Assembly: GCA_030428255.1 (NCBI GenBank)
Contig: JAUIBT010000003.1
Location: 62,001 to 126,000, forward strand
Source of the DNA: Alphaproteobacteria bacterium
GTDB lineage: Bacteria > Pseudomonadota > Alphaproteobacteria > UBA7985 > JAUIBT01
Reading direction: 5' to 3'
DNA: 64,000 bases
Shown here: positions 2,861 to 20,648 of the stretch, in pieces
Layout of the letters: every line of letters starts with the position of its first letter
Position numbering within the stretch: position 1 is the stretch's first letter
Position numbers and translations under genes: made by a program
The notes under the pieces: model-generated
Told to the model about the DNA's origin: nothing
The model's database searches: none
The model's input: the letters and a program-made list of their open reading frames with translations, nothing else

Positions 2861-2974
2861 GTTTGCCTCCTGATGATGCGCGATGAAGGGGCAGGATAAA
2901 ACAAAGCTTTCCATCGCTCTAGTATATGTTTTAGATTACAAGTATAACAAAATGATATGGAAGGAGTTGCGCGC

Positions 2975-4229: not shown

Positions 4230-5708
4230 CTAGCCGATAACAAAGGGGTTGCCGGTCTTGGCGCCGAAGGACATCCAGGTGGTTTTGGTCTCCAGGTAGT
4301 CATCAATGGCGTGTTGGCCGCTCTCGCGCCCCAGGCCCGAGTGCTTGAAACCACCAAAGGGTGCCATATAACTGACGGCGCGATAGGTGTTGGTCCAAAT
4401 CGTGCCTGCACGCAGCCGTTCAGAGGCCTTAAATGCGCGCGACATGTCCTGTGTCCAAACCCCCGCAGCCAAGCCATAGATGCTATCGTTAGCCGCCGTA
4501 AAGGCCTCTTCGTCGCTCTCAAAGGGGATGATCGACAGCAGAGGGCCAAACACTTCTTCTTGCGCGATGCGCATGTCGTTGGAAACCTTGGTAAAGGCAG
4601 TGGGCTGAACGAACCAACCATCTTCTGCGCCTTCAACTCGCGCTCTGCCGCCGCCCATGACACATTCGGCGCCGCCTTCGCGTGCGATGTCCATATAGCT
4701 CAAAACGCGCTGGAATTGCGCTTCGGTGGTGACGGGGCCGACTTGTGTTTCCAGGTCCATCGGGTCGCCAAGGCGGGCGCTCGCGGCCAGATTGACGAAA
4801 CCTTCAACAAAGGCGTCATGGACGCTTTTGTGGACCAGCACCCGCGAGCCCGCGATGCAGGTTTGACCGCTGGCAGCAAAAATGCCTGAGACCACACCAA
4901 AGATGGCGCTTTCTAAGTCGGCATCATCAAAGATAAGTTGCGGGGACTTGCCGCCCAGCTCCAGGGTGACGTGCTTGAAGCCCCGCGCGGCGGCCTCGGC
5001 CACGTGGCGGCCGCCGATGTCGCCCCCTGTGAAGGCCACTTTGTCAACGCCAGGATGCTCAACCAAGGGCGCGCCGACGTCCGCGCCAAGGCCAGGCACG
5101 ACGTTCAAAACGCCATCAGGAAAGCCCGCTTCCTTGGCCAGTTTCATCAGTTCTATGGTTGACGCTGAGGTATGCTCGGAAGGCTTCAAGACCATGGTAC
5201 AGCCCGCTGCGAGGGCAGGGGCCAGTTTCCAAGTTGTCAGCAGCAAGGGCGAATTCCAAGGCGTGATAGCGGCGACAACGCCCACGGCCTCGCGGCGGGT
5301 AAAGACAAACATGTCGGGCTTGTCGATGGGCAGCACGGCACCTTCGATTTTGTCCGCCAGGCCGCCAAAATAATAGAACCACTGCGGAATGTAGCGCAGT
5401 TGTGTGCGCATTTCTGCATAAAGCTTGCCATTGTCACGCGTTTCTATCGCCGCCAAGTGGTCCGCGTTTTCGGCAATCAGATCGCCGAAATTGCGCAAAA
5501 TGGCGCCGCGTTGGGTCGCGGTCATTGTGCGCCAGGGGCCATGATCAAAGGCCGCGCGTGCGGCGGCCACCGCGCGATAAACGTCTTCCTTGCCACATTG
5601 GGCAACGGTCGCCCAAGGCTTGGCGGTATAGGGGTTGATGGTCTCCATAACCCGGCCATCGGCGGCATTACAGAAACTTCCGTTAATGAAGGCTTGATAG
5701 TGGCGCAT
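4230..5708 (-). CDS. NAD(P)-dependent aldehyde dehydrogenase (amine regulon)
   Basis: This is a cytoplasmic enzyme of about 492 residues that oxidises an aldehyde to a carboxylate. The superfamily signatures are present: PWNSPLLLTTWKLAPALAAG, the general base in LELGGKSPQLIFDDAD, and the nucleophile cysteine in SGQTCIAGSRVLVH. The ATG at 5708 is preferred, with a purine-rich GAAGAAG 12 bases upstream. A GTG four codons earlier (5720) is possible. It follows livF by 148 bp and precedes the terminator at 4043-4080, so it is probably the last gene of the transporter operon. It may oxidise the aldehyde made by the alcohol dehydrogenase at 10927 or by the P450 pathway; the substrate is inferred only from context. 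Confidence 0.93.
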   Translation of the reverse strand: MRHYQAFINGSFCNAADGRVMETINPYTAKPWATVAQCGKEDVYRAVAAARAAFDHGPWRTMTATQRGAILRNFGDLIAENADHLAAIETRDNGKLYAEMRTQLRYIPQWFYYFGGLADKIEGAVLPIDKPDMFVFTRREAVGVVAAITPWNSPLLLTTWKLAPALAAGCTMVLKPSEHTSASTIELMKLAKEAGFPDGVLNVVPGLGADVGAPLVEHPGVDKVAFTGGDIGGRHVAEAAARGFKHVTLELGGKSPQLIFDDADLESAIFGVVSGIFAASGQTCIAGSRVLVHKSVHDAFVEGFVNLAASARLGDPMDLETQVGPVTTEAQFQRVLSYMDIAREGGAECVMGGGRARVEGAEDGWFVQPTAFTKVSNDMRIAQEEVFGPLLSIIPFESDEEAFTAANDSIYGLAAGVWTQDMSRAFKASERLRAGTIWTNTYRAVSYMAPFGGFKHSGLGRESGQHAIDDYLETKTTWMSFGAKTGNPFVIG

Positions 5709-5856
5709 TCTGGTATTCACTTCTTCAAAAATCGCAATGGATTTGCCGTTGGCAGCAGGGGAGGCCTCGCTTTTCTGGCAGCACGAGCCCTGCTCTGAGC
5801 GTTTGCTTAGTCGCCCAAGTTGCTGATGCAGGCCTGGGCGACTGGCCAGCTTGGCT

Positions 5857-6561
5857 CTAGTGGCCGAAATAGGCCTCCATCAACCGTGGGTCATCCCGCA
5901 GCTCATCGACGGTACCTGAGATGCGCATTTCGCCTGATTCCAGCACGTAAAGCCGCGAGGCCAACTTCATTGCGAAATTGGCGTTTTGCTCGGTAATGAC
6001 GATGGTCATCTTCAGCTCGCGGTTCATGCGCGCCAAGACCTCGGCGATTTCATCACATAGCTTTGGAGCCAGGCCGATGGTTGGTTCGTCAACCAGCAGG
6101 ACCCTGGGGCTGGTCATCAGAGCACGTCCCAGGGACACCATCTGGCGCTCGCCGCCCGATTGGGTGCTGGTCTCCTGATTTTCTCGCTCTTCCAAGCGCG
6201 GAAATAAGCGATGGATCGCCTCTAAGTTCTGTTCAATGTCATCGCGCGCTGTAAAGGCGCCTACCATTAGGTTGTCGCGCACCGACATAAAGGGAAACAG
6301 GTTGAAGCGCTCAGGTGCGTAGCCGACACCGCTCTTAACGATGTCTGCGGTGCTGAGCCCGGCCAGTGACTTACCTTCCAGACGGATGTCACCGGTGGTT
6401 TTGGTGAGCCCCATAATGGAATCCAGCAGGGTTGACTTGCCAGCACCATTGGCACCGATGATGGCTACGATTTCGCCCTGCTCAACGGAAAAGGAGATAT
6501 CGCGTAGAGCTTGCGCTTTGCCGTAGAAAGCAGAAAGGTTGTCAAATTCCAGAAAGCTCAC
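5857..6561 (-). CDS. livF: Liv-type ABC transporter ATP-binding protein (LivF)
   Basis: This is an ABC ATPase of 234 residues at the inner face of the membrane, one of two ATPases in a hydrophobic amino acid/amide (HAAT) importer. Walker A is GANGAGKSTLLD, the signature is QSGGERQMVSLGRAL and Walker B is VLLVDEPTIGL. The length and the C-terminal end (LMEAYFGH) fit LivF. The start lies two bases after the livG stop, so the two are translated together. The substrate is not necessarily a branched-chain amino acid, because the gene sits in an amine-degradation regulon. Confidence 0.95.
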   Translation of the reverse strand: MSFLEFDNLSAFYGKAQALRDISFSVEQGEIVAIIGANGAGKSTLLDSIMGLTKTTGDIRLEGKSLAGLSTADIVKSGVGYAPERFNLFPFMSVRDNLMVGAFTARDDIEQNLEAIHRLFPRLEERENQETSTQSGGERQMVSLGRALMTSPRVLLVDEPTIGLAPKLCDEIAEVLARMNRELKMTIVITEQNANFAMKLASRLYVLESGEMRISGTVDELRDDPRLMEAYFGH

Positions 6562-6563
6562 GT

Positions 6564-7292
6564 CTACCCTCCCAAGTAAGAAGCCACTACGGCTTCGTTG
6601 TCCATGACTTCGCTAAAGCTTCCTTCAGCAATTTTTTGACCTTGGTTGATGGCGATGGCCCGATCCACCAAGGGTTCAAGAGCTTTCAAATCGTGGCTTA
6701 CGATCAAGAAGGTCATACCCTCGCGCCTCATGCTTTGGATCAACTCAGATATCTGAGCGATCTCGCCGACGGTAAGGCCAGCAAAGACCTCATCCAAAAG
6801 CATAACGTTGGGATTGGTGGCCATAGTGCGAGCCATTTCCAGCTTGCGCAGGTCACCCATCGAAAGCTCTGACGGGCTTCTGTGCAGATCCTGGGGTGCC
6901 AATCCGACGCTGAGCGCTAGCGCTTCTTCGCGGTCATGATCAACGCGTCCGAACACCATCTGGGTGAGATTGTCCGGCATGAGGCCAACGCGAATATTCT
7001 CTAAAACGGTCATGTCAGAGAAAGGACGCGGCACCTGATAGGTCCGGCTGATGCCGTGTCGGATACGGGCTGCGGTTGACATGCCGCCGATGTCGCGACC
7101 GGCAAGGTGGATGGTGCCTGAGGTCTGGCGCACTTCACCCATAATCTGCGAGAAAATGGTCGTCTTGCCAGCCCCGTTTGGCCCGATCAAAGCCAAGGAG
7201 TCACCCTTTTCGACTGTGAAACTCACATCATTGGTTGCGGTCAGGCCACCGAACTTTTTGACGAGGTTTGATACGGTAAGAAGACTGGTCAT
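6564..7292 (-). CDS. livG: Liv-type ABC transporter ATP-binding protein (LivG)
   Basis: This is the second ATPase of the importer, 242 residues. Walker A is GPNGAGKTTIFSQ, the signature region is LSMGDLRKLEMARTMA and Walker B is VMLLDEVFAGLT. The loop between residues about 70 and 120, containing RTYQVPRPFSDMTVLENIRVG, is typical of LivG. Its start overlaps the livM stop by four bases (ATGA). It is predicted to pair with LivF on the LivHM membrane pore. Confidence 0.95.
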   Translation of the reverse strand: MTSLLTVSNLVKKFGGLTATNDVSFTVEKGDSLALIGPNGAGKTTIFSQIMGEVRQTSGTIHLAGRDIGGMSTAARIRHGISRTYQVPRPFSDMTVLENIRVGLMPDNLTQMVFGRVDHDREEALALSVGLAPQDLHRSPSELSMGDLRKLEMARTMATNPNVMLLDEVFAGLTVGEIAQISELIQSMRREGMTFLIVSHDLKALEPLVDRAIAINQGQKIAEGSFSEVMDNEAVVASYLGG

Positions 7293-8236
7293 GAGCGCGA
7301 CTTCCCCTTGATGGCTGAAAGCGCCATTTGCAAGACGTGATGCAGCCCTTTGGGCTCAAACATGTAGAGCACCAATGCAATGCCGCCGTAGATGAAATAG
7401 CGCTCAGCGCCTGGTAGATAGGGGCGCAAATATTCCAGCAAGAACGTCAGGAAGAATGCGCCGAATATCGGTCCAATGATGGTCGATGCACCGCCCAAGA
7501 TGGCAGCGACAATGATGGTGAAGACAAAGTTGATGTCAAACAGCGCACGCGGGGCGATCGAGCCCAGATAGTGGACGTAGAAGGCGCCCCCTAAGCCGGC
7601 AACAAAGGCGCTTAGCATAAAGGCTGCCAACTTGAGTTTGGTGGTGTTGAGGCCTGATCCACGAACTGCCTCTTCGTTCATGCCAATGGCGCTCAGTGCG
7701 GTACCCAAACGAGTCTTCATCAACAGCCACATGCCAAATCCAAGGCTGGCGATGAGCCCGAACGAAAGATAGTAGCCGTTGACGGCGCCGCGGGTGAGAG
7801 TCTGGATACCAGACATACCGCGGGTTCCACCGGTCAGGTCAGGCCGGATGACCTGCACCAGTTGATACATGAGCTCCATGAAGGCCAGAGTAACAAGCGC
7901 AAAGTAGCTGCCGCGAACGCGCAAGGCGGGCAAGAACAGCAGGCTGCCGCCGACCATGGTAACCAGCACCGCTGCGGGAATGGAAATTTCGACAGGAACG
8001 TCAAAGCGCTTTGTCAAAATCGCGGTGGTGTAAGCGCCCAAGCCAATCAAGAAGGGATGACCGAAGCTGACGTAGCCTGTCCGACCAGAAAGCACGTCCC
8101 AGCTGATGGCAAAGATAGCCAGGTAATTGGCAAAGATGATCGTACGCAAGGTGCCCTTCGAAACCAGCTGGGGCAGGAAAAACATGCCAACAATAAAGGC
8201 GGTCCACAGGGCCAGGTGATACCAACGAATGTTCAT
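7289..8236 (-). CDS. livM: Liv-type ABC transporter permease (LivM)
   Basis: This is an inner-membrane permease of 315 residues with about eight to ten hydrophobic helices. It carries the family block SGRTGYVSFGHPFLIGLGAY near residue 50 and the cytoplasmic coupling loop GMNEEAVRGSGLNTTKLKLA, which contacts an ATPase. The ATG at 8236 is chosen because GAGGAG lies about eight bases upstream, inside the end of livH. The five-residue longer form lacks support. It forms the import channel with LivH. Confidence 0.95.
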   Translation of the reverse strand: MNIRWYHLALWTAFIVGMFFLPQLVSKGTLRTIIFANYLAIFAISWDVLSGRTGYVSFGHPFLIGLGAYTTAILTKRFDVPVEISIPAAVLVTMVGGSLLFLPALRVRGSYFALVTLAFMELMYQLVQVIRPDLTGGTRGMSGIQTLTRGAVNGYYLSFGLIASLGFGMWLLMKTRLGTALSAIGMNEEAVRGSGLNTTKLKLAAFMLSAFVAGLGGAFYVHYLGSIAPRALFDINFVFTIIVAAILGGASTIIGPIFGAFFLTFLLEYLRPYLPGAERYFIYGGIALVLYMFEPKGLHHVLQMALSAIKGKSRS

Positions 8237-8237
8237 T

Positions 8238-9089
8238 TTACAGCTCCTCACGTCCGAATAAGCCCTTGGGACGCAGGACCAAGACGCCGATAATTAACAA
8301 CATAGTGACAACGCCGCGCAGCTCTGGAGCAATTGCAGACGTGACGATCACCTCCATGTAGCCGATGACATGCGCGACGATGAGCGTTCCGATAATTGAG
8401 CCAATGCCGCCAACGATCACGACAGCAACGGCGATAATGAGCGGTGAAACCCACATGCCTGGATAGAGCTGTGTGTAGGAGGCAAAAAAGACACCAGCGA
8501 TTGCGCCTAAGGCACCAGAGATGCCCCAAGTCACCATGTTTACGCGATCCGGATCAATGCCACTGATGGCAGCCCCCTTCACGTCCATAGAGACAGCTTG
8601 CATGGCGCGTCCCATATGCGTGCGGCGCACAAACAGATACAGGCTAATGAGGATAACCCAACTGGCCACTGTCGCTACGAGGACGTTGTAGGTGACGGCC
8701 GCGCCTTCGACGCGCACGACGCCGGGGATAATGGGCAACAGAATTTTTGAAGCATCGCCAAACAGCAGAACAACGCCCGCTTGAAGTACGACTGCCAGAA
8801 TGAGCGTGGCGATTTCGATCGCGACTGAATCCCCTTTAAGGGTTTTTACCACGAGACGATAGATCAAGAGGCCGGTGACGACACCGATCAAAGCAGCTAT
8901 CACGACGCCGGCGATTTTTGGCAGGCCAAGAATCTGAGAAAAATAGAAGTAGCTGTAGCCACCTATCATCAAATAGGCGCCGTAGGCGAGGTTCAAAACC
9001 CGCCCAATACTAAATATTAGCGTAAAGCCCACCGCGATGAGCGCGTAGAGGCCGCTTAACAAAAGGCCTTGGATGATTATTTGCAGCAT
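8238..9089 (-). CDS. livH: Liv-type ABC transporter permease (LivH)
   Basis: This is an inner-membrane permease of 283 residues with about eight hydrophobic helices. The N-terminal GLLLSGLYALIAVGFTLIFS and RVLNLAYGAYLMIGGY are hallmark LivH segments. The coupling loop MGRAMQAVSMDVKGAAISGI lies at about residues 174-193. It is followed after one base by livM. A 146-bp gap separates it from the substrate-binding protein gene upstream; that gap holds an imperfect GC-rich hairpin near 9192-9224 that could slow transcription and keep binding protein in excess. Confidence 0.95.
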   Translation of the reverse strand: MLQIIIQGLLLSGLYALIAVGFTLIFSIGRVLNLAYGAYLMIGGYSYFYFSQILGLPKIAGVVIAALIGVVTGLLIYRLVVKTLKGDSVAIEIATLILAVVLQAGVVLLFGDASKILLPIIPGVVRVEGAAVTYNVLVATVASWVILISLYLFVRRTHMGRAMQAVSMDVKGAAISGIDPDRVNMVTWGISGALGAIAGVFFASYTQLYPGMWVSPLIIAVAVVIVGGIGSIIGTLIVAHVIGYMEVIVTSAIAPELRGVVTMLLIIGVLVLRPKGLFGREEL

Positions 9090-9235
9090 GATGGCAGCCC
9101 GCTAGTTGCTGTTGCAGGGTCGGAGGACTGGATCGAACGGCGTAAGGTCGTACAATCCGCAGGGTCCGGTCGGGACGATAAGTGGAAACCAAGGGCCCGC
9201 TTGGCTTATGCTGGGCGAGCCCTAGGTGTGGGGTC

Positions 9236-10522
9236 TTATTCTTTCACCCAGCTCGGCAAGGTGTATTCAGTGTTCGCGTACTCGAAGGGGTAGACAACAC
9301 CAACTGAGCCGTCTTCCTTCCACTGAACAACTACCATAGAAGGCTGTGCTGTGTCGTAGGGGGCTTCCAAGTCAAAGCGCCCGTTGTGAGGGTAGGTGCG
9401 CTGAGTTACAGGCTCAACTTCGTCCTTGCCCCAATAGGCGTAGCGCAACCAGAGCTTGCCGTCTTTTTCCAGCGTAAGATCTTGCTTTTCCATGGCCGCT
9501 GACCAGGCCTTGACGTCGCCGAAACCGCCGGCTTCCTCAGCCGCTGCAAGCGCTTGCTTTACACCGTGGTAGGCGTTGAAGCCGTTGAAGTGTGGCACCA
9601 TGGGGCGGCTGGTGTAGCGCGCCTGATAGGCCTTTACGAAGTCAGCGCTAACCGGGTCCATATCAAAGCCAACAGACGGAACGGGAGACAAAGTTGAGAT
9701 GCCGCCACCAGCGCCGCCAGTGTCTTCCCAGAACTCCATACCCATCGCACCAACGTTAACGCCAGTCATTGCCAGCGGAACTTGCAGCTTTACATACTGT
9801 GAAGAAATGACCTGGCTGTTGACGGTCGAAATCTGGTAGATGAAGTCTGCGCCCGAGGCCTGAGCCTTTGAAAACAGGGGGGCAAAATCGACGGTACCCA
9901 CATCATAAGTGATGATGTCTTTAACTTCGATGTCTGCCACGGGTGCCAGAGCGTCTGTCACCAAGCCAGTGATGGCGCCGCCAAACGCGGTATCTTCGGC
10001 CAAAATGACCACAGAATCCCAGCCCATGCGGTCCTTCAGCACGTCTTTGCCGAAGTTGATGTACAAGGTGGCCAAAGCTTCATCAGAAGCGATGTTCATG
10101 AAGTAAGGCGCCATGGCGTCAGGATCTTCAACGACCATGTCGATGATGCCGACGTAAGAGGTCCAAGTATCCAGCGTGGGGATCTGGTACTCGATCATGC
10201 GCGGCAACCAAGCCAAAGATACGTCATCGATCGAACCAGAGATAACAAAGTCAACCTCTTCAGTCTCGGCGAGATACTCATAGGCCTTGACGCCTTCGGT
10301 AACGTCTTCACCAGTGTCGGCCTTAACCAGCACGACTTTTTCGCCAAGAATTCCGCCCTTGGCGTTGATCTCGTCAATCGCCATTTCAGCGCCACGCAGA
10401 GTGCTGAGGCCGGTATCGGATGACAAGGATCCGATGAAGCCAACTTTAATGTCGGCATAAGCTGATGTGGCTGCCAATGCAGAACCCATCAATGCTGCTA
10501 GAGTGATTTTTTTGACGCTCAC
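9236..10522 (-). CDS. Periplasmic substrate-binding protein of the Liv-type ABC importer
   Basis: This protein of 428 residues starts with a signal peptide (MSVKKITLAALMGSALAATS, cleavage probably after AYA at residue 23). The mature part is a type 1 periplasmic-binding fold: DIKVGFIGSLSSDTG at its start, then RGAEMAIDEINAKGGI. It is the first gene of the operon with livHMGF and an aldehyde dehydrogenase. The 13-bp palindrome at 10575-10587 lies 52 bp upstream of its start and links it to the GntR regulator at 12000. It resembles the amide/urea/branched-chain amino acid binding group; the ligand is probably the amine or amide the regulon degrades, which is inference. Confidence 0.92.
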   Translation of the reverse strand: MSVKKITLAALMGSALAATSAYADIKVGFIGSLSSDTGLSTLRGAEMAIDEINAKGGILGEKVVLVKADTGEDVTEGVKAYEYLAETEEVDFVISGSIDDVSLAWLPRMIEYQIPTLDTWTSYVGIIDMVVEDPDAMAPYFMNIASDEALATLYINFGKDVLKDRMGWDSVVILAEDTAFGGAITGLVTDALAPVADIEVKDIITYDVGTVDFAPLFSKAQASGADFIYQISTVNSQVISSQYVKLQVPLAMTGVNVGAMGMEFWEDTGGAGGGISTLSPVPSVGFDMDPVSADFVKAYQARYTSRPMVPHFNGFNAYHGVKQALAAAEEAGGFGDVKAWSAAMEKQDLTLEKDGKLWLRYAYWGKDEVEPVTQRTYPHNGRFDLEAPYDTAQPSMVVVQWKEDGSVGVVYPFEYANTEYTLPSWVKE

Positions 10523-10574: not shown

Positions 10575-10587
10575 GTGTACTGTATAC
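10575..10587. promoter_or_regulatory. Putative GntR operator A
   Basis: GTGTACTGTATAC matches the perfect palindrome at 12833-12845 (GTATAC-T-GTATAC) except for one base. It lies 52 bp upstream of the binding-protein start, a suitable place for repression. Confidence 0.7.
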
Positions 10588-10868: not shown

Positions 10869-10888
10869 GTATACAGAATACAGTATCA
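10869..10888. promoter_or_regulatory. Putative GntR operator B (overlapping half-sites)
   Basis: GTATAC-A-GAATAC (10869-10881) matches the GTATAC-N-GTATAC palindrome with one mismatch. A third partial half-site, GTATCA (10883-10888), follows with the same 7-bp step. It lies 38 bp upstream of the alcohol dehydrogenase start. Confidence 0.72.
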
Positions 10889-10926: not shown

Positions 10927-11886
10927 ATGAAAGCCATGATTCTACCGGCAGTGGGGGCAAAAATGGAGGCTGTAGAGCGTCCAGACCCGAGTCCCAAGGG
11001 TGAGGAAGAAGTGATTGATGTGATCGCGTGCGGAGTCTGTCATTCGGATTTGCACGTGGTTGATGGTGACTACGGCGATGCGACTCCGATAATTCTGGGG
11101 CACGAAATCGTCGGGGAACATAAAACATTGGGCCCGGTCATGGTCTATGCGCCTTGGGGATGCGGCGAGTGTCCCGAGTGTGGCAAAGGCCAACAGCAAA
11201 TCTGCTCAAACGCAAAAGAAGCGGGGCTCGTTGTTGATGGCGGTTATGCAGAAAAGGTCTTGGTTCCCAACAAATCCTATCTTGCGCCCATCGGTTCGCT
11301 CGATCCCTATTCTTCCGCGCCGCTGGCCTGTGGAGGCTTGACCGCCTATCGGGCTGTTTCTCATGGCATTTCTGATCTTGGAAAGCGCAGCAAGGCAGCC
11401 GTCATTGGCGCTGGTGGTCTGGGTCAATTTGCGATTCAATATCTGCGGCACCTGTCTGACGCTGAGGTAACGGTGATCGACATCGATGAAAACAAGCGGA
11501 TGGAAGCGCTTGGACGTGGTGCGCATGCGGCTGTTGCGCCGGACGAAGTGGACACCAAGTTTGACTTTATCGTGGATTTTGTCGGCGCAAACCCGACGCT
11601 GGAGCTGGCATCGACTCGGGTTAACAAAGGCGGTTGCGTTGTTGTTGTCGGCCTGTTCGGCGGCAGCATTCCTTTTGGATTCGGGCGGGTTCCCCATGAA
11701 GCGCGATTCCTTTCCTCTGTATGGGGCAGCCCAAAGCAAATGGTCGAGCTATTGGACTTTGCCGCCAAAACGGACATCTCGGTTCCAGTTGAGCGCATGC
11801 CTTTGAGTCAGGCTCAAGCTGCGCACGACAAGTTGCGATCTGGGGCGGTTAGCGGTCGAATCGTACTGGATATCGCGGCCGAGTAG
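10927..11886 (+). CDS. Zinc-dependent alcohol dehydrogenase (MDR superfamily)
   Basis: This is a cytoplasmic enzyme of 319 residues that interconverts an alcohol and an aldehyde with NAD(P). Catalytic zinc ligands are seen in CGVCHSDLH and GHEIVGE. Structural zinc cysteines are in CGECPECGKGQQQIC. The Rossmann motif is VIGAGGLGQFA, followed by VTVIDIDENK with the acidic residue expected for NAD preference. The ATG at 10927 has GAGGAG six bases upstream; the longer frame begins upstream of operator B and is rejected. At 319 residues it is shorter than the usual 340-350. Operator B places it in the GntR regulon. It may oxidise a hydroxylated intermediate of the P450 pathway (inference). Confidence 0.93.
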   Translation: MKAMILPAVGAKMEAVERPDPSPKGEEEVIDVIACGVCHSDLHVVDGDYGDATPIILGHEIVGEHKTLGPVMVYAPWGCGECPECGKGQQQICSNAKEAGLVVDGGYAEKVLVPNKSYLAPIGSLDPYSSAPLACGGLTAYRAVSHGISDLGKRSKAAVIGAGGLGQFAIQYLRHLSDAEVTVIDIDENKRMEALGRGAHAAVAPDEVDTKFDFIVDFVGANPTLELASTRVNKGGCVVVVGLFGGSIPFGFGRVPHEARFLSSVWGSPKQMVELLDFAAKTDISVPVERMPLSQAQAAHDKLRSGAVSGRIVLDIAAE

Positions 11887-11999: not shown

Positions 12000-12662
12000 T
12001 TACGCTGCGGCTACGGCATCGATTTGCATGATCATGCCATCACGGATGTGATCGCACATTTTGGCCCGGGCCACGTTTTGATCCCCGGTTTCAATAGCAT
12101 CAATTAGTTGTTGATGCCCGCCAAGTGACTTTGAAAGATCGACTTTCTCAAGCGTCGCAAACATTGTGTAGGAGGGGCCGCGGTTCCAAATGTTGTCGAA
12201 CAAGTCCAGCAGGTATCGATTTCCTGCAGTCGCAACGATGGTTCGGTGGACTTTTCTGTTTGCCAGGAAATACGCTTTGACACTTGGGTGCTCAACGCGC
12301 TCAGCGTTGCGAATCTTTTCGCGCAGTTGAGTCAAAACCCTTCGATCGCAACGCGCGGCCAAAAGGCAAGCAGCGTGGCCCTCGATGGCACAGCGCGCTT
12401 CATAGATTTCGGTGATCTCTTCTTGCCCTAACAGCCGGAGTTTGAAGCCGCCATTGCCGACATCTTCCAACAAGCCCTCCTGTTCCAGGCGGAACAGGGC
12501 CTCACGCACTGGGGTTCGACTGATACCAAGCTGGGTGGCAAGCTTTTCTTGAACGATTCGATCTTCTGGCGTGAAGCCTCCATCATAGATGGCTTGAACG
12601 ATCTGCTCGTGGGCCTGATCGGCGAGTCGCCGCTTTGGCCTTTCAAGGGGTTGTAGCTTCAT
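12000..12662 (-). CDS. GntR-family (FCD domain) transcriptional regulator of the amine regulon
   Basis: This is a regulator of 220 residues. The N-terminal winged helix (about residues 12-72) contains the GntR signature EKLATQLGISRTPVREALFR. The C-terminal helical FCD domain has well-placed metal-site histidines (NRKVHRTIVA, GGHQQLIDAI, CDHIRDG). The ATG at 12662 is chosen because GGAGG lies 11 bases upstream and the protein then begins at a typical position; the longer frame has no ribosome site. It is divergent from the glutamine-synthetase-like operon, with palindrome C between them. The same palindrome stands before the importer and the alcohol dehydrogenase, so it is the likely local regulator. 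PipR of mycobacterial pyrrolidine/piperidine degradation is also a GntR protein next to a P450 gene. Confidence 0.93.
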   Translation of the reverse strand: MKLQPLERPKRRLADQAHEQIVQAIYDGGFTPEDRIVQEKLATQLGISRTPVREALFRLEQEGLLEDVGNGGFKLRLLGQEEITEIYEARCAIEGHAACLLAARCDRRVLTQLREKIRNAERVEHPSVKAYFLANRKVHRTIVATAGNRYLLDLFDNIWNRGPSYTMFATLEKVDLSKSLGGHQQLIDAIETGDQNVARAKMCDHIRDGMIMQIDAVAAA

Positions 12663-12832: not shown

Positions 12833-12845
12833 GTATACTGTATAC
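12833..12845. promoter_or_regulatory. Putative GntR operator C (perfect palindrome)
   Basis: GTATAC-T-GTATAC is a perfect 13-bp palindrome in the 274-bp gap between the divergent GntR gene and the glutamine-synthetase-like gene. It is the best copy of the motif and could control both directions, including autoregulation. Confidence 0.78.
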
Positions 12846-12936
12846 ACAAATGCAAATCAATAAGCGAGGCCCTATGCGCGACTTACTGCAGTTCGTGTTT
12901 CGCCAAACTCGAGAATCTTTCGTCAGGAGAGGACAC

Positions 12937-14235
12937 ATGAATCGTTCAGACTTTTATGAATTGCCTGAAGGAACCCACACGGTTTCTATTGGGATGGGGG
13001 ATCTAAACGGCATCATGCGCGGCAAGCGCGTGCCAGCGACCCACTGGAAAACCGCGTGTGACGACGGCATTGCGTTGTCAACTGCGCTGCTGACCATGGA
13101 TATGACATCTGATCTTTGGGACACCCCTTATGTCAACGTCGCCAACGGTTATCCCGATCTTGTCATGTTCCCGATCACCAAGCCAGTGTCGATTCCCTGG
13201 GAGCCAGGCGTAGCCTTTTGTTTGGCACAATCGCGCACAATGGCGGGTGAGCCGCTGCCAATCGACCCTCGCGAGACCCTGGTCGCTCAAGTGGAGCGAG
13301 CCAAGCGCATGGGCTTTGAAGTCAAGACCGGAACAGAGCTTGAATTCTATTTGCTCGACAACGAGACGCTGCAACCCAAGGAGCAAGGCATCCAGGTCTA
13401 CTCTTTGTCAAAGGCAGCGGAGCTTGAGCACGTATTGGGGCCGATTCGCCAAGAAATTAACGAAATGGGCATTAAGATTGAACAGTCGAACCCGGAATAT
13501 GCGCCTGGCCAAGTCGAGGTCAATATTCGCTATGACGAGGCGCTGTTGTCGGCTGATCAGATCATTATGTTCCGATCTCTGGTCAAGCAGTTGGCTGCCC
13601 GCCATGGCTACCTTGCAACCTTTATGGCTAAGCCCTTCATCGGCGAATCGGGCAGTGGCTTCCATACGCACTATTCTCTATGGCGCAACGGCCAGAACGC
13701 CTTTGCGGAGAACGGCAAGCTGAACCAACTGGGGCGCCACTTCTTGGCTGGCCAGCAAAAGTATATGGCGGAAATCGCCCTGGCAGGGTCTTGCACGCCC
13801 AATGCCTACCGGCGCCGGCAGCCCTATACCTTCTGTCCCACCAACAATGCTTGGGGCTTTGACAATCGCACGGTTGGCCTGCGCGTCATTCAGGGATCAA
13901 ACAGCGCTGTTCGCGTTGAAAAGCGCGATGCTTCGGCGGACTGCAATCCCTACTACCTGCTGGCATGTGATCTGGCTGCGGGCCTCGATGGAATCGAGCA
14001 GAAGATGGAGCCGAGCGAGCCGTGTTTGGGCGATGCTTATGCATTGGAGGACGCGGAAATTTTGCCATTGACCCTGGAGGCGGCTGTCGAAAAGGCAAGG
14101 GCCAGCACGTTGATGACCCGCGTCATGGGTGATTATCGCAAGCAGATCTTGATCGAGCAGGCGGAGCGCGAAATTGGGTTTGTCGCCAATCAGGTGACCC
14201 AGGTCGAGCTAGATCGCTACGCGCGCAATCTCTAA
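12937..14235 (+). CDS. Glutamine-synthetase-like gamma-glutamyl-amine ligase
   Basis: This is an ATP-dependent ligase of 432 residues in the glutamine synthetase superfamily. It is predicted to join glutamate to an amine and not to ammonia. Active-site blocks are present: GTELEFYLL (metal), EYAPGQVEVN (metal and substrate), ESGSGFHTHYSLW (glutamate), NNAWGFDNRTVGLRV (ATP) and RVEKRDASADCNPYYLLA. The ATG at 12937 follows AGGAGAGGACAC; the longer frame would start inside operator C and is rejected. It heads a tight operon with a reductase, a P450 and a class I amidotransferase-like protein, under GntR control. Known relatives that act on amines are PuuA (putrescine), IpuC (isopropylamine) and AtdA1/TdnQ (aniline). 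A housekeeping role is unlikely in this setting. Confidence 0.92.
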   Translation: MNRSDFYELPEGTHTVSIGMGDLNGIMRGKRVPATHWKTACDDGIALSTALLTMDMTSDLWDTPYVNVANGYPDLVMFPITKPVSIPWEPGVAFCLAQSRTMAGEPLPIDPRETLVAQVERAKRMGFEVKTGTELEFYLLDNETLQPKEQGIQVYSLSKAAELEHVLGPIRQEINEMGIKIEQSNPEYAPGQVEVNIRYDEALLSADQIIMFRSLVKQLAARHGYLATFMAKPFIGESGSGFHTHYSLWRNGQNAFAENGKLNQLGRHFLAGQQKYMAEIALAGSCTPNAYRRRQPYTFCPTNNAWGFDNRTVGLRVIQGSNSAVRVEKRDASADCNPYYLLACDLAAGLDGIEQKMEPSEPCLGDAYALEDAEILPLTLEAAVEKARASTLMTRVMGDYRKQILIEQAEREIGFVANQVTQVELDRYARNL

Positions 14236-14258
14236 TCGGACGAGAGGGGGCAAAAGCG

Positions 14259-15329
14259 ATGCAAAAGAAAACGTACCGCGTGGTGGAACGCGAAACCAAC
14301 ACGCCTGAGATTAGCTCGTTCGTGTTGAAACCAACCGACGGCAGTACCTGCCAGGCAAGGCCCGGCCAATATTTGGTGCTGGAAATACCGCTGGAGGGGC
14401 AAGACGCGCCCCTGCGGCGAGAATACAGCATTTCGCGCTGGGATGATGACAGCTTTCGCATCACCATCAAGCGCGAGCCTGCGCCGGCCGATCACCCAGA
14501 ATACCCAGAGGGCAAGGGGTCGTCCTGGGCTCACGATCACCTCAAGGTGGGTGATGAGATCCAGGCCTTTGGCCCCGCCGGGGGGTTCACGCTGGATGAA
14601 GAAAGCGATCTTCCGGTCGTCCTGTTGAGCGGTGGAGTCGGGCTCACCCCGGTCATGGCCATGGCGCAGCGCCTGGCCGCAGAAGGCAAGCGCAAGACTT
14701 GGTTTATTCACGGCTGTGAAAACGGTAGTGCGCACGCCTTCAAGGACGAGACCGACGCTCTAGCTGCCAGCTGCGCGCTGTTCAAGACCGCCTATGTCTA
14801 TCGTTCGCCTGAACCAGGCAATGTCGCAGGCAAAGACTACCACAGCGCTGGATTTGTGACGGCGGATGTCCTGAAAGACGTTCTGCCTATGGATCGCTAT
14901 CAGTTCTATCTTTGTGGCCCTGGTCCATTTATGTCCGCAATTTACGACACGCTTTCCAGTCTTGGCGTATCGGATGCCGACATCTACTACGAATTCTTTG
15001 GGCCTGCGACGCTCTTGAAAAAGAATTCCGTCAAGCCGCAGCCTGACCCGGCAGCCGAAGAAGCGAAGAAGGCCCAGCCGAGCGTGACCTTTGCCAAGAG
15101 CGGGCTGACTTTGCCGTGGGACCCTGAGCTGGAAAACCTACTTGACTTTGCAGAAGAGCAGGGCCTGTCCCCGGACTTTAGCTGTCGGTCTGGTACCTGT
15201 TCCACCTGCACGGCTGGAAAGCTGTCAGGAACGGTTTCCTACTTGCAAGAACCGCTCGATGAGCTGGAGGAGACAAGCATTCTGCTGTGCAGCGCTTACC
15301 CCACCAGCGACATCACATTAGATCTCTAA
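14259..15329 (+). CDS. FAD/NAD(P)H reductase with C-terminal plant-type 2Fe-2S domain (P450 partner)
   Basis: This protein of 356 residues carries electrons from NAD(P)H through FAD to a 2Fe-2S cluster. Domain order is an FAD-binding barrel (RREYSIS, residues about 49-55), an NAD(P)-binding domain (LLSGGVGLTPVMA, LCGPGPFM) and a ferredoxin domain (from about 270) with CRSGTCSTC and the fourth cysteine in LLCSAYP. This matches phenol hydroxylase/Hmp-type and Rieske-oxygenase reductases. It starts 23 bp after the ligase and ends 18 bp before the P450, so it is almost surely the P450 redox partner and makes a separate ferredoxin unnecessary. Mycobacterial P450 systems for cyclic amines use a separate ferredoxin, so the layout here differs. 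Confidence 0.93.
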   Translation: MQKKTYRVVERETNTPEISSFVLKPTDGSTCQARPGQYLVLEIPLEGQDAPLRREYSISRWDDDSFRITIKREPAPADHPEYPEGKGSSWAHDHLKVGDEIQAFGPAGGFTLDEESDLPVVLLSGGVGLTPVMAMAQRLAAEGKRKTWFIHGCENGSAHAFKDETDALAASCALFKTAYVYRSPEPGNVAGKDYHSAGFVTADVLKDVLPMDRYQFYLCGPGPFMSAIYDTLSSLGVSDADIYYEFFGPATLLKKNSVKPQPDPAAEEAKKAQPSVTFAKSGLTLPWDPELENLLDFAEEQGLSPDFSCRSGTCSTCTAGKLSGTVSYLQEPLDELEETSILLCSAYPTSDITLDL

Positions 15330-15347
15330 TTTCGAAGGAGAGTTGTC

Positions 15348-16592
15348 ATGCTTGACCCCACTTCCACTGGGTTGGCCGATTATGACTTGTTCGATCAGGG
15401 GCTACCGCTTCAGTCGTTCGAAGAATTGCGTAAGCGCGACGGTCTAGCTTGGACCGAGGAACCCAACGGCCCAGGCTTTTGGTCCGTCACGCGCTACAAA
15501 GATATCATCGACGTTTCGCGCGACTTTGAAACTTTCTCATCGCAGGCTGGCCACACCACAATCGAAGACGTGGATGAAGACGCCAAGGAGCTGCGCCGCT
15601 CTATTATTGAGACGGATCCGCCGGAACATATGGGCATCCGTAAACTGATTGCTCCGGCCTTCACGCCGCGGAAGGTTCGCCAGTACGAGGATATGGTTCG
15701 TGAAATCGTCGCCCGCTATCTTGAGGCCTTCGAGGCCAAAGGCTCGGGCGATTGGTTGACGGAAGTTGCCAAGCCTATTCCCATCGAAGTCTTGCTGCGC
15801 CTGCTTGATATCCCGACAGAAGAACAAGACTATCTTATCGAACTGACGGATTATCTTGTCACCGGCATAACCGTGGGTGAGCTGCCCGCCGATGCCTATG
15901 GCAACACAACTGACCTGCGTTTGTTGCCTTTCCAGAGCCCAGCCGCGCACGCTCTCTATGAGTACGGCTTGAAGATGCGCAAGATTCGTCAGGAAAACCC
16001 CGGCGATGATTTGGTCTCTGTCTTGGCGGTCGGTGAGGTTGAAGGCAAGCCCTTGTCCGAGACTTTCTATAAGAACATGTTCCAAGTGCTGATCTTCGCT
16101 GGCAATGAAACCACGCGAACAGCCATGGCGCATACCGCATTGCTTTGGGAAAAGCATCCCGAGCAATTTCAAAAACTGGCCGAAAATCCGGCGCTGATCC
16201 CTAACGCCATTGAGGAGATTTTGCGCGTTGCTTCGCCGGTGATCTATATGCGTCGCACCGCCACAAGGGATGCCGAGATTGCCGGTACGCAAATCAAGGC
16301 GGGCGATAAAGTGGTGACCTGGTTTGCCAGCGGGAACTACGATGATAGCGTTTTTGACGATCCCTACAGCTTTGACGTGACCCGCAAGGCTCCGCCTTCG
16401 GTCGCCTTTGGCGGCGGCGGTGTTCACACTTGTCTGGGGGCGTTCATCGCGCGCTTGGAGTTGAAGGTGCTGATCGAGGAGATGATTAAGCGCAACATGC
16501 GAGTATCGTGCGATGGTGAGATTGAGTACATCAAGTCAAACTTCGTCAATGGTATCGAATCGCTTCCAATGCGCGTCGTAAAGACCGCGTAA
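15348..16592 (+). CDS. Cytochrome P450 monooxygenase (amine operon)
   Basis: This is a soluble bacterial P450 of 414 residues. The I-helix oxygen-activation motif is FAGNETTR. The K-helix ExxR is EEILRVAS. The haem-ligand loop is FGGGGVHTCLGAFIARLE, with the axial cysteine before LG. The ATG follows AAGGAGAG. The FAGNETTR and FGGGG-x-H pattern recalls the CYP125/CYP142 type, but the neighbours are amine genes. It lies between its reductase and the amidotransferase-like hydrolase. The proposed role is hydroxylation of an amine, or of its gamma-glutamyl adduct, at the carbon next to nitrogen. The substrate is unproven. Confidence 0.94.
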   Translation: MLDPTSTGLADYDLFDQGLPLQSFEELRKRDGLAWTEEPNGPGFWSVTRYKDIIDVSRDFETFSSQAGHTTIEDVDEDAKELRRSIIETDPPEHMGIRKLIAPAFTPRKVRQYEDMVREIVARYLEAFEAKGSGDWLTEVAKPIPIEVLLRLLDIPTEEQDYLIELTDYLVTGITVGELPADAYGNTTDLRLLPFQSPAAHALYEYGLKMRKIRQENPGDDLVSVLAVGEVEGKPLSETFYKNMFQVLIFAGNETTRTAMAHTALLWEKHPEQFQKLAENPALIPNAIEEILRVASPVIYMRRTATRDAEIAGTQIKAGDKVVTWFASGNYDDSVFDDPYSFDVTRKAPPSVAFGGGGVHTCLGAFIARLELKVLIEEMIKRNMRVSCDGEIEYIKSNFVNGIESLPMRVVKTA

Positions 16593-16622
16593 TTAGCAAA
16601 ATTCAGGAAGTAGGACACAAGC

Positions 16623-17309
16623 ATGAAGATTGGGATACTTGTAACAGGTCATCCTGCGCCCAAGCTCGCGCCTAAGTACGGGGAATACAACAAGCTGTTT
16701 GAAAAGCTGCTTGCGGGCCAGGACCTGGAGTTTGAAGCCTTCTTTTCGGTCGATGATGAGGCGCCTGACCCAAACAATGTCTGCGACGGTTATCTTGTGA
16801 CCGGGTCGGGGCGCAACGTGACCGAGAACGCGCCTTGGATGGGGACTCTGTCTGATTGGCTCGCCAAGACCTATGGGCAAAAACCCATCGTAGGGGTCTG
16901 TTTTGGTCATCAGATCCTGGCCCATGCCTTGGGCGGCAGGGTCGATGTTTCGGGCTGCGGGTGGACGGTTGGAGTGACGCCTTATCAGCGAGTCGACGGT
17001 GGCGAAGATTTCACCGCCTCGGCTTGGCATCAGTACGAGGTTGCTGAAGCGCCCACAGATGCTCGGGCTTTCATCGAAACCGATACTTGCCGCTATGCAG
17101 GCCTGACTTACGGCGACAAGGCGCTGAGCTATCAGATGCACCCCGAATTCGACGATACCTATCTGGCTGAACTCTATGAGGACTACAGCTATGTTTTGTC
17201 CGCCGAAGCACGCCAAACCTACCAGCGCACCTTGGGGCGCCATCGGGTGAACCACAAGATCGGTGAGGAAATTGGGCGGTTCTTTAAGACCGGTAGCATC
17301 CAAGCCTAG
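16623..17309 (+). CDS. Class I glutamine amidotransferase-like hydrolase
   Basis: This protein of 228 residues has the class I (triad) amidotransferase fold. The nucleophile cysteine is in VGVCFGHQILAHALGG and the histidine and acid are in YQMHPEFDDTY. No synthetase domain is attached, which fits a stand-alone gamma-glutamyl hydrolase. AtdA2/TdnT of aniline degradation is such a protein, and PuuD of the putrescine pathway plays the same role. It is the last gene of the operon after the P450 (30-bp gap, start after AGGAAGTAGGA). The proposed job is to remove the glutamyl group after oxidation. An alternative is transfer of glutamine-derived ammonia to the ligase. Confidence 0.88.
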   Translation: MKIGILVTGHPAPKLAPKYGEYNKLFEKLLAGQDLEFEAFFSVDDEAPDPNNVCDGYLVTGSGRNVTENAPWMGTLSDWLAKTYGQKPIVGVCFGHQILAHALGGRVDVSGCGWTVGVTPYQRVDGGEDFTASAWHQYEVAEAPTDARAFIETDTCRYAGLTYGDKALSYQMHPEFDDTYLAELYEDYSYVLSAEARQTYQRTLGRHRVNHKIGEEIGRFFKTGSIQA

Positions 17310-17730
17310 CGCAAACCCCGCGCAACTGGCGTCGGCGTAGTGTGCCATGCAGGCCTCGGCCCAGTTCAGCTCGCAAAGGCGCGATGCGTGGGAGAGGGCG
17401 AGGGATTGGGCCCAAGGCTTGGCTCCTAATTGGGCCAAAGGCCTGGCTCCGCTATTTGGGTGTCAAGCACACTGTATGCGAACCAGCGACGCGCGCTTAA
17501 ACGCGACGAAACGCGCCGAAACGCGAGTACCAGCCGCTGGGGCCATTTGGGGGCCCTACCGTCACACAGGGCCGCGCGGGTCGGGTGGCGCGGGTCGGGG
17601 CGCTCGGCTCACGCCTTTGGGCGCTCGGCTCAAGCCCTTGAGATCAGTGCGCGCCAACCCGGGCATGACCGGCGGTAACGACAAGATCAAAAACGAATAG
17701 AGACAAAAATTTTAGCCAACAGGAGGCGAC
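17310..17730. repeat. Repeat-rich intergenic stretch
   Basis: This 421-bp gap has no convincing gene but several independent tandem duplications. One is two copies of about 24 bp beginning TTGGGCCCAAGGCTTGGCTC (about 17407-17455). Another is three copies of a 10-bp unit AAACGCGACG (17499-17527). A third is two copies of about 20 bp around GGGCGCTCGGCTCA (about 17598-17640). A weak operator copy lies at 17467-17479. A promoter for the downstream aminotransferase may lie here, but none was recognised. Confidence 0.7.
17467..17479. promoter_or_regulatory. Weak GntR operator candidate D
   Basis: GCACACTGTATGC matches 10 of 13 positions of the GTATAC-T-GTATAC palindrome; the right half-site differs at one base. 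It lies 251 bp upstream of the aminotransferase. The match is suggestive only. Confidence 0.35.
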
Positions 17731-19050
17731 ATGGAAAAGTCCTATAAGAGCATGGACCACTTTTGGATGCCCTTTACCGCCAATCGAGCCTTCAAAGCCT
17801 CGCCGCGCATTATAGAGAGGGCCGAAGGCATGTGGCTCTATAATGATCAGGGGCAGCAAATCCTGGATGGGATTGCTGGGCTGTGGTGCGTAAATGCCGG
17901 ACATGGCCGCCGTTCTATCGCTGATGCAATTAGCGCCCAAATTCAGAAGCTGGATTATTCGTCGCCTTTCAATATGGGGCACGATATAGGCTTTGAATTC
18001 GCCGAGCGGCTCACCCACTATACGCCTGATGGCATGGATCGCGTCTTCTTTGCGAATTCAGGGTCCGAGTCGGTCGAGACTGCCTTGAAGATAGCACTCT
18101 CCTATCACCGGGCACGCGGAAAGTCGGGCAAGATCCGCTTTATCGGTCGTGAGAAGGGCTATCACGGTGTTAACTTTGGTGGCATCACGGTTGGCGGAAT
18201 CACGCCCAACCGCAGTGGTTTTGGGCCCCTAATGCCGGTTGATCATATCGGCCATACCCACGATTTGGCGGCCAACGCATTTTCCCGCGGATTGCCCGAG
18301 CAGGGCGCGGACAAAGCCGATGAGCTCCAGCGCCTGATCGATTTTCACGGCGCGGATACCATCGCTGCGGTCATCGTTGAGCCGGTGGCTGGTGCAGGTG
18401 GTGTTCTTATGCCTCCGGTTGGATACCTGCAACGCTTGCGCGACATCTGCAACCGCCACGACATTCTGCTGATTTTCGATGAGGTTATCACTGGTTGGGG
18501 TCGTTTGGGCGCTCCCTTCGCCGCACGCAAATTCCAGGTGACGCCAGATCTCATGACCTCGGCCAAGGGTATTTCAAATGGCCTGGTGCCCTTGGGGGCG
18601 GTCTTTATGCGCAACGAGATTTGCGACACCGTGCAGGCAGCCGCGCCCGACGGCAGTGTCGAGTTCTTCCATGGCTATACCTATTCCGGTAGTCCCATCG
18701 CCTGCGCGGCAGGCCTGGCAACTCTGGATATCTATGACCAAGAGGGGCTGCTGACGCGGGCGTCCGGTGACATCGGAGCCTATTTCGAGGAAAGTTTGCA
18801 CGCCTTGGCCAACGCGCCAGGGGTTGTCGATGTCCGCAACTGCGGTTTGATCGGGGCCGTGCAGTTTGCTCCGAACGCAGACGGAAGCCCCCGCGCGCCA
18901 GAACTGTCGAGCTATTGCTATCAGAAGGGGGCTGCCATCCGACCCATCGGCGATAACCTGGCTTTCTCTCCGCCCCTGATTATCGAAAAGGCTCATGTCG
19001 ATCAGTTGGTCGAAACCGTCTTTGATGCAGCTAAGGCGGCCTACGCCTAG
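17731..19050 (+). CDS. Class III PLP-dependent aminotransferase (omega-amino acid/amine:pyruvate type)
   Basis: This enzyme of 439 residues moves an amino group from an omega-amino acid or amine to pyruvate or another keto acid. The PLP fold blocks are visible: FANSGSESVETALKIALSYH (phosphate-binding region), IIFDEV-type aspartate in LLIFDEVITGWGRLG, and the Schiff-base lysine in SAKGISNGLVPLGAVFM. The N-terminal FWMPFTANRAFKA is typical of beta-alanine/omega-amino acid:pyruvate transaminases. AGGAGG stands just upstream of the ATG. In the proposed pathway it deaminates the amino acid released from the P450 operon, producing a semialdehyde for the next gene. Confidence 0.93.
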   Translation: MEKSYKSMDHFWMPFTANRAFKASPRIIERAEGMWLYNDQGQQILDGIAGLWCVNAGHGRRSIADAISAQIQKLDYSSPFNMGHDIGFEFAERLTHYTPDGMDRVFFANSGSESVETALKIALSYHRARGKSGKIRFIGREKGYHGVNFGGITVGGITPNRSGFGPLMPVDHIGHTHDLAANAFSRGLPEQGADKADELQRLIDFHGADTIAAVIVEPVAGAGGVLMPPVGYLQRLRDICNRHDILLIFDEVITGWGRLGAPFAARKFQVTPDLMTSAKGISNGLVPLGAVFMRNEICDTVQAAAPDGSVEFFHGYTYSGSPIACAAGLATLDIYDQEGLLTRASGDIGAYFEESLHALANAPGVVDVRNCGLIGAVQFAPNADGSPRAPELSSYCYQKGAAIRPIGDNLAFSPPLIIEKAHVDQLVETVFDAAKAAYA

Positions 19051-19154: not shown

Positions 19155-20648
19155 ATGAAAACCAAGCAAGACTGGTACGCCCTAAAAGATACCTTGAGCC
19201 TCAGCGGCCAAGCCTTCATCAACGGTGAGCGCACATCTGCGCAAAGTGGCAAGACTTTCCCGGTTGTGAACCCAGCAAGCGAAACGGTCTTGGTGGAAGC
19301 AGCAGAATGTGATCAGGCCGACGTTGACTTGGCGGTCGCAGCGGCCAAGCGCGCGTTCGAAGAGGGCAGTTGGTCGCAAGCTGCACCCAGCCATCGCAAA
19401 ACGGTTCTGCTGAGGCTGACAGCGCTGATTGCCGAGCATCGCGATGAATTTGCATTGATTGACAGCCTGGATATGGGCAAGCCCATCGCCGAAATGGTTG
19501 GGATCGACATGTCAGAATCGCTTGCGTGCTGGCAGTGGACAGCAGAATCCATCGACAAGATATATGGCGAGATTTCGCCGACCCATGGCGATACCCTGGG
19601 CCTGATAACCCATGAACCGGTCGGCGTTGTTGGTGCAATTACGCCCTGGAACTATCCATTCATGATGATGACATGGAAGATTGCCCCTGCCTTGGCGGCG
19701 GGCAACTCTGTGGTCTTGAAGCCATCAGAGCGGGCGCCGCTCAGCGCCATCCGTTTGGCTGAGCTGGCCCTGGAAGCGGGATTGCCCAAAGGGGTCTTTA
19801 ATGTCGTTCCAGGCTATGGCCATACCGCGGGCAAGGCGCTGGCCTTGCATGACGATGTGCGAGTGTTGACTTTTACCGGATCGACGCGGGTTGCGGGCCA
19901 ACTCATGCAATACGCCGGGCAGTCCAATTTGAAGCGCGTCTTGACTGAGGCAGGCGGCAAGTCGCCTATGTTGGTGTTCGATGATTGCGCTGATTTGGAT
20001 GCCGCAGCCCAGCGCGCCGCCTTCTCCATCTTTATGAACCAGGGGGAGATGTGTATCGCGTGTTCGCGCCTTTATGTGCACGACAGTATCAAAGAGGCCT
20101 TTTTGGAAAAGCTGATCGCGTTGGCCAAAGGCTATCAGCCGGGCGATCCTTTGGATCCCGATACCAAAATGGGCGCAGCCGTCGATCGGGCTCACTTTGA
20201 GGCTGTGAACGCATCGGTAGCCGGTGCAGAGCAGGAGGGCCTGCACTGCATCTATGGCGGGACCACTCAGCACAAAGCGGGCGAGGGCTACTATTTTTCG
20301 GCGACGATCTTTGATGATGTGCCTGCTGAAGCGAGCGTTATGCGCAAGGAGATATTTGGTCCTGTTTTGGCGGTCTGTGGATTTAAAGACGAAGCGGAGG
20401 TCATCGCGCTGGCCAACGATACCCCTTATGGCTTGGGCGCCTCCGTGTGGACCAGTGATTTAAACCGCGCTCATCGGTTGGCCCGCAAACTCGAGAGCGG
20501 GATGGTTTGGGTGAATGGCTGGGGTGGCGGAGATCCGACCCTTCCATTTGGTGGCATCAAGGCCTCGGGCAATGGCCGTGATCGCTCTTTGCATTCGGTG
20601 TTGGAGTATACCAACATGAAGTCCATTTGGATGAGCCTGGAGCCCTAA
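19155..20648 (+). CDS. NAD(P)-dependent aldehyde dehydrogenase (second of the amine regulon)
   Basis: This is a cytoplasmic enzyme of 497 residues. Signatures are PWNYPFMMMTWKIAPALAAG, the general-base glutamate in LTEAGGKSPMLVFDD (the usual ELGGKSP is altered to EAGGKSP) and the nucleophile cysteine in NQGEMCIACSRLYVH. It resembles gamma-glutamyl-aminobutyraldehyde/betaine-aldehyde type enzymes such as PuuC. The ATG at 19155 begins at the usual N-terminal position; the frame is open 26 codons further upstream without a ribosome site. It follows the aminotransferase by about 100 bp and probably oxidises its semialdehyde product. A 16-bp repeat array begins within its last codons. Confidence 0.93.
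   Translation: MKTKQDWYALKDTLSLSGQAFINGERTSAQSGKTFPVVNPASETVLVEAAECDQADVDLAVAAAKRAFEEGSWSQAAPSHRKTVLLRLTALIAEHRDEFALIDSLDMGKPIAEMVGIDMSESLACWQWTAESIDKIYGEISPTHGDTLGLITHEPVGVVGAITPWNYPFMMMTWKIAPALAAGNSVVLKPSERAPLSAIRLAELALEAGLPKGVFNVVPGYGHTAGKALALHDDVRVLTFTGSTRVAGQLMQYAGQSNLKRVLTEAGGKSPMLVFDDCADLDAAAQRAAFSIFMNQGEMCIACSRLYVHDSIKEAFLEKLIALAKGYQPGDPLDPDTKMGAAVDRAHFEAVNASVAGAEQEGLHCIYGGTTQHKAGEGYYFSATIFDDVPAEASVMRKEIFGPVLAVCGFKDEAEVIALANDTPYGLGASVWTSDLNRAHRLARKLESGMVWVNGWGGGDPTLPFGGIKASGNGRDRSLHSVLEYTNMKSIWMSLEP

Follow-up and report, generated by a model that had tools for sequence, protein, structure and literature searches.

A predicted regulon for amine catabolism pairing a glutamine-synthetase-like ligase with a cytochrome P450

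A tight four-gene operon at positions 12937–17309 of a 64,000-nucleotide stretch of DNA (contig JAUIBT010000003.1 of assembly GCA_030428255.1, positions 62,001–126,000 of the forward strand; hereafter the window, to which coordinates refer) probably belongs to a regulon that serves to break down a small aliphatic primary amine, which would be tagged with glutamate and then attacked by a cytochrome P450. A C3–C4 alkyl amine is suggested as the substrate, a choice that must be regarded as rather doubtful. The overall reading is favoured because of the residues of the ligase and the hydrolase, a counterpart cluster in Mesorhizobium loti, a shared palindrome, a recurring ligase-P450 linkage with its sequence signature, and the precedent of the isopropylamine (ipu) pathway. 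The pathway logic is already known from ipu but relies here on different proteins; the separate P450 lineage and its recurrence across bacteria are useful rather than startling. The strategy of glutamate tagging followed by P450 attack, described for isopropylamine, would thereby be extended to other P450s of soil and marine bacteria. In addition, the signature offers a search tool for P450s whose substrates are probably glutamylated amines, and the window provides one compact regulon in which to seek the substrate.

Gene content and predicted enzyme functions

The operon consists of four undamaged open reading frames on the plus strand, spaced by 23, 18 and 30 bp. A glutamine synthetase (GS)-like protein, predicted to be a gamma-glutamyl-amine ligase, comes first (12937–14235, +; 432 amino acids; Pfam Gln-synt_C, 7.5e-88), followed by a reductase with flavin adenine dinucleotide (FAD), NAD(P)H and 2Fe-2S domains, the presumed electron donor of the P450 (14259–15329, +; 356 amino acids; Pfam FAD_binding_6, NAD_binding_1 and Fer2). 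The cytochrome P450 itself (15348–16592, +; 414 amino acids; Pfam p450, 1.1e-24) precedes a class I amidotransferase-like protein presumed to hydrolyse gamma-glutamyl amides (16623–17309, +; 228 amino acids; Pfam GATase PF00117, 4e-14). Reading frames, gaps and Pfam domains thus agree with the four-gene operon proposed in an earlier, sequence-only reading of this DNA. That reading had also called the reductase fused, which holds for its FAD, NAD and 2Fe-2S domains, joined to each other on one chain, but not for the P450, which is a distinct polypeptide. None of the four proteins reached a curated NCBIfam cut-off. The proposed check for synteny in other genomes gave a positive result: in a congeneric genome (G001), ligase, reductase and P450 follow in the same order as far as the contig end, with 93–98% identity, and the ligase-P450 pairing was found in many more genomes. 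Chance adjacency of the four genes was ruled out by this conserved synteny together with the common palindrome described below. An in-frame ATG at 12874 makes a longer ligase possible, the bases at 12874–12966 being identical in two species; relatives and the ribosome-binding site favour the start at 12937.

The GS-like protein is very probably an amine ligase, because its catalytic residues are kept while two positions are replaced as in known amine ligases. Alignment with Escherichia coli GlnA showed that E129, E131, E212, E220, H269, R321, R339, R344, E357 and R359 are retained, and that two positions differ, the ammonium-site residue Tyr179 being Val and the flap residue Glu327 being Phe. 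The same kind of change was found at these positions in PuuA, IpuC and NpaA1. Organic-amine ligases of the GoaS kind are recognized by the same combination, namely retention of catalytic and metal residues with replacement of Tyr179 and Glu327, and both features are present in the window ligase. An ordinary glutamine synthetase was ruled out by the ammonium-site changes and by family cut-offs. The ligase also scored below the cut-offs for type III ligases of the GlnT/GmaS kind (TIGR03105; 231 bits, cut-off 470) and for gamma-glutamylputrescine synthetase (NF045547; 206 bits, cut-off 650). In the ligase tree, which has long branches and an unsure deeper order, a fully supported clade unites the ligases of the window, M. 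loti, G001, G203 and G011, leaving IpuC, PuuA and NpaA1 outside. The ligases of G203 and G011 are 64% identical to that of the window and lie near N-methylglutamate-synthase-like genes; in G203, where the detail was seen, the ligase adjoins N-methylglutamate-type glutamate-synthase-like subunits, an aldehyde dehydrogenase and an oxidase of the DAO type with 31% identity to PuuB. Because so similar a ligase keeps such company, we read the members of the clade as likely alkyl-amine ligases that feed differing downstream routes. The G203 neighbourhood (L035) itself may serve a larger amine by a methylglutamate-like route.

The closest solved relative of the hydrolase is gamma-glutamyl peptidase 1, and the class I catalytic Cys (GVCFGHQ) and His-Glu (MHPE) are retained. 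Its predicted role gains from comparison with plasmid pML2037 of M. loti NZP2037, where a cluster (L021) resembles the window in its ligase (63% identity), its ligase-linked P450 (52%), the reductase adjoining that P450 (42%) and its GntR regulator (46%). The M. loti cluster differs in having an APC permease, another gene order and, in place of the amidotransferase type of the window, a PuuD-family hydrolase (16808–17464; 40% identical to PuuD). Since two different families fill the same place in equivalent clusters, the comparison supports a gamma-glutamyl hydrolase role.

A candidate regulon and the proposed route

Expression of the operon appears to be tied to that of neighbouring genes. 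An exact palindrome, GTATACTGTATAC, the presumed operator, lies at 12833–12845, about 90 bp upstream of the ligase start, and a gene for a GntR-family regulator of the FCD type (12000–12662, −; PF00392 and PF07729) diverges from the operon. With up to one mismatch allowed, GTATACWGTATAC has just three matches across the 3.5 Mb of the genome, located before the operon, before a Zn-dependent alcohol dehydrogenase gene (palindrome at 10869–10881, one mismatch; gene at 10927–11886, +; PF08240 and PF00107) and before the genes of a branched-chain-type ATP-binding cassette (ABC) importer (palindrome at 10575–10587, one mismatch, exact in G001). All three palindromes are retained in G001. Weaker palindromes precede the P450 and GntR genes in the M. 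loti region, which has a total of three matches where 0.42 would be expected. Because the palindrome is restricted in the genome to three sites, all of them here, the operon, the alcohol dehydrogenase and the importer are suggested to form one dedicated regulon, with the GntR protein as the likely joint regulator.

The importer genes occupy 5857–10522 on the minus strand and encode a binding protein (9236–10522; Peripla_BP_6, 6e-38), permeases (8238–9089 and 7289–8251) and ATPases, one of them LivF-like (6564–7292 and 5857–6561). In line with them lies an aldehyde dehydrogenase gene (4230–5720, −; Aldedh, 1.5e-174; 40% identical to PuuC). Past the importer operon, at 609–3925, are genes for a coenzyme A (CoA)-transferase, an acyl-CoA dehydrogenase and a LysR protein. 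A link between these acyl-CoA dehydrogenase and CoA-transferase genes and the sulfinopropanoyl-CoA desulfinase and CoA-transferase of M. loti was dropped, as identity is only 31–34% and the window enzyme scores far below the desulfinase cut-off. Downstream of the operon, a class III omega-aminotransferase of the AptA type (17731–19050, +; NF052567, 642 bits, cut-off 500) and a PuuC-like aldehyde dehydrogenase (19155–20648, +; 49% identical to E. coli PuuC) may be tied to the pathway, to judge by their position. The palindrome before the aminotransferase gene (17467–17479) has three mismatches, lies outside the genome-wide list at one mismatch and may be due to chance.

A regulon of this composition bears on whether the operon might instead make or detoxify a gamma-glutamylated compound. 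P450s and GS-like ligases do have such roles too; however, sharing of the palindrome with an importer and dehydrogenases is typical of a regulon for catabolism, and the vicinity has no biosynthetic core gene, so that this explanation is considered very unlikely. The domains, active-site residues, synteny and operator-like palindrome all back the catabolic logic put forward in the sequence-only reading, in which an amine is glutamylated, acted upon by the P450 and deglutamylated. From them we infer the individual reactions, their regulation and the order of the last steps as follows. The ABC importer would take up the amine, which the ligase would join to glutamate at the expense of ATP, the resulting gamma-glutamyl amide being uncharged. 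With electrons passed on from NAD(P)H by the FAD/2Fe-2S reductase, the P450 would hydroxylate the alkyl part, most likely at a terminal methyl group as in ipu. The hydrolase would then release glutamate from the hydroxylated amide, leaving an amino alcohol for conversion to an amino acid by the alcohol dehydrogenase and one of the aldehyde dehydrogenases; the omega-aminotransferase, if part of the pathway, would remove the nitrogen. As long as no inducer is bound, GntR would keep the four-gene operon, the alcohol dehydrogenase gene and the importer genes repressed at their promoters.

Within this catabolic scheme, the last steps could also run in the order of the putrescine (Puu) pathway, with the glutamylated amino alcohol oxidized to the acid first, the hydrolase acting last and the resulting omega-amino acid passing to the aminotransferase. 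In that case one would expect a linear amine with terminal hydroxylation as the substrate, for example propylamine, leading to beta-alanine. The PuuC-like aldehyde dehydrogenase and the AptA-type aminotransferase just downstream speak for this order, and the substrate of PuuC is a gamma-glutamylated aldehyde. The poor operator match of these downstream genes speaks against it, as does the assignment of the ipu hydrolase to the alcohol stage (PMC6776027). Altogether, the Puu-like order is a possible but somewhat unlikely variant.

Recurrence of the linkage and a P450 sequence signature

The P450 carries the usual motifs, including AGNETT in the I-helix and FGGGGVHTCLG in the haem loop. A ligase gene was found to adjoin 11 of its 12 top matches in the 61 genomes first searched, the window P450 itself being counted. 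Linkage of this kind recurs in Mesorhizobium, roseobacters, the order of the source bacterium and Streptomycetaceae. For instance, contig 36 of the same genome holds a second, diverged amidotransferase-P450-ligase triad (L038:9126–12443), whose ligase is about 28% identical to that of the window and which is conserved across the order; aminotransferase and aldehyde dehydrogenase genes lie near it. Besides members of the order, Sagittula and Ruegeria also carry such triads, and ligase-P450 pairs were found in Streptomyces and Embleya. The triads of the order and the roseobacters (L038, L040–L048, L053 and L054) share with the window a ligase, a P450 with the same signature and a class I amidotransferase; in contrast to the window, their P450s are only 36–40% identical to the one studied here and no fused reductase is adjacent. 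In the open-access literature searched, no description of non-ipu ligase-P450 clusters was found. On a plasmid of Streptomyces canus (L023, 2728–11227), the ligase-P450 pair lies near a homoprotocatechuate-type ring-cleavage set comprising a dioxygenase, an aldehyde dehydrogenase and a member of the fumarylacetoacetate hydrolase family, perhaps a pathway for an aromatic ethylamine.

The signature was derived by comparing 15 ligase-linked P450s outside ipu with 8 unlinked ones. R83, P194, F195, P198 and N243 are present in all 15 linked proteins, and E88, S197 and A295 show one exception each; these residues are mostly missing from the unlinked P450s. R191, within an F-G insertion, is likewise invariant. 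Furthermore, the signature was found in six of seven new loci outside the derivation set, four with an adjacent ligase and two at a contig end, while the seventh had neither signature nor ligase. Signature and linkage therefore coincide in all five testable loci (four with, one without). R83 and R191 may hold the glutamyl carboxylate, a hypothesis prompted by their location in regions that usually contact the substrate. Somewhat short of an even chance, we suggest that this widespread P450 group, defined by R83, E88, N243 and an F-G insertion containing R191 and PFxSP, is specialized for gamma-glutamyl amides, recognizes them by the glutamate as a handle and has a recruitment history separate from that of the ipu P450. 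If true, the clusters of the window, M. loti, the roseobacters and Streptomycetaceae would represent parallel pathways for different environmental amines. The window also holds a second P450 gene (26159–27466, −), whose product is 27% identical to the first and which has no adjoining ligase among the open reading frames seen.

Several observations weigh against the proposed glutamylated-amine regulon. The closest solved P450 structures are CYP125 and CYP124, hydroxylases of sterols and methyl-branched lipids, so the fold gives a polar amide no favour. The AlphaFold model of the P450 is of fair quality as a whole (pLDDT 81), but residues 174–192 are poorly modelled, so that R191, proposed as a glutamate-binding residue only hypothetically, sits in an F-G loop of low confidence. 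The signature might be explained by common descent alone and so be a mark of lineage, not of function. In addition, the ligases of G203 and G011, although of the same clade, adjoin different chemistry and not this P450, and a good operator match is lacking before the aminotransferase and downstream aldehyde dehydrogenase genes.

Comparison with known amine-degrading systems

P450, redox partner and GS-like genes also stand close together in the mycobacterial pip/mor and the Gulosibacter cyclic-amine genes (PMC9477822). The Gulosibacter P450s are 52–53% identical to PipA and MorA, and the ligase is overexpressed on molinate (PMC9477822). On this model the substrate would be a cyclic secondary amine: the P450 would hydroxylate the free ring amine, the ring would open to an amino aldehyde, and the ligase would act on this product or on released ammonia. 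The Gulosibacter neighbourhoods, in which a pipA-like P450 is reported together with a reductase and a ligase, favour such a route, and the aldehyde dehydrogenases and aminotransferase of the window would suit 4-aminobutyrate or 5-aminovalerate. However, the window ligase is without the ammonium site, a dedicated gamma-glutamyl hydrolase adjoining the P450 better fits a glutamylated P450 substrate, and no amidotransferase is mentioned in the Gulosibacter paper (PMC9477822). The cyclic-amine comparison made in the earlier reading is thus possible, but a cyclic substrate is improbable.

The aniline (AtdA1/AtdA2) and 1-naphthylamine (NpaA1) systems glutamylate their amine and employ an amidotransferase-like hydrolase (PMC11335346), as is proposed for the window. 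They differ in using a Rieske dioxygenase on aromatic substrates where the window has a P450; no Rieske gene was recognized among the operon and the neighbours scanned. An aromatic or arylalkyl amine, with the P450 replacing the dioxygenase, would accord with this atd logic of ligase plus hydrolase (PMC11335346) and with the ring-cleavage genes adjoining the S. canus pair. Nevertheless, a ring-cleavage gene was recognized in none of the neighbours examined, and a single P450 hydroxylation of aniline gives no catechol directly, which leaves this substrate class highly unlikely. The Puu pathway resembles the predicted aliphatic-amine regulon in its GS-like ligase (31% identity), PuuC-like aldehyde dehydrogenase (49%) and gamma-glutamyl hydrolase role, but has the flavin oxidase PuuB in place of a P450 and a hydrolase from another family. 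The aniline and putrescine comparisons drawn in the earlier reading hold as logic, though neither system is the nearest match.

The nearest match is the ipu pathway of Pseudomonas KIE171 (de Azevedo Wasch 2002, as cited in PMC6776027); the earlier reading, which knew of no described system with all four kinds of protein, is corrected by this precedent. In Paenarthrobacter aurescens TC1, gamma-glutamyl-isopropylamide formed by IpuC is described as the substrate of a multicomponent P450, whose product is gamma-glutamyl-L-alaninol, and release of alaninol by an amidotransferase has been postulated (PMC6776027). The cluster occurs twice on TC1 plasmids (pTC1 and pTC2) and once in Pseudarthrobacter LT1; on plasmid pSR5 of Aminobacter SR38, identified by homology, reductase, ferredoxin, ligase, P450, ferredoxin and amidotransferase genes are consecutive. 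As in the window, one cluster unites the P450 and its redox partners with a GS-like ligase and an amidotransferase, and that of pTC2 also encodes a permease, an aminotransferase and alcohol and aldehyde dehydrogenases. Transport differs, with a permease in ipu and an ABC importer in the window. So do the redox partners, which are a separate ferredoxin and ferredoxin reductase in ipu and one FAD/NAD/2Fe-2S protein in the window, and the hydrolases, since a PuuD-like protein adjoins the P450 on pTC1 and pTC2 whereas that of the window is class I amidotransferase-like. The window ligase is 34% identical to TC1 IpuC and belongs to a separate clade, compared with 51% between the SR38 and TC1 ligases, and the window P450 is 30% identical to that of TC1 and sits on a long separate branch, compared with about 60–68% among ipu P450s across genera. 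Membership of ipu by descent was ruled out by these ligase and P450 identities and the other type of reductase. The window operon thus probably works like ipu, but as a separate assembly.

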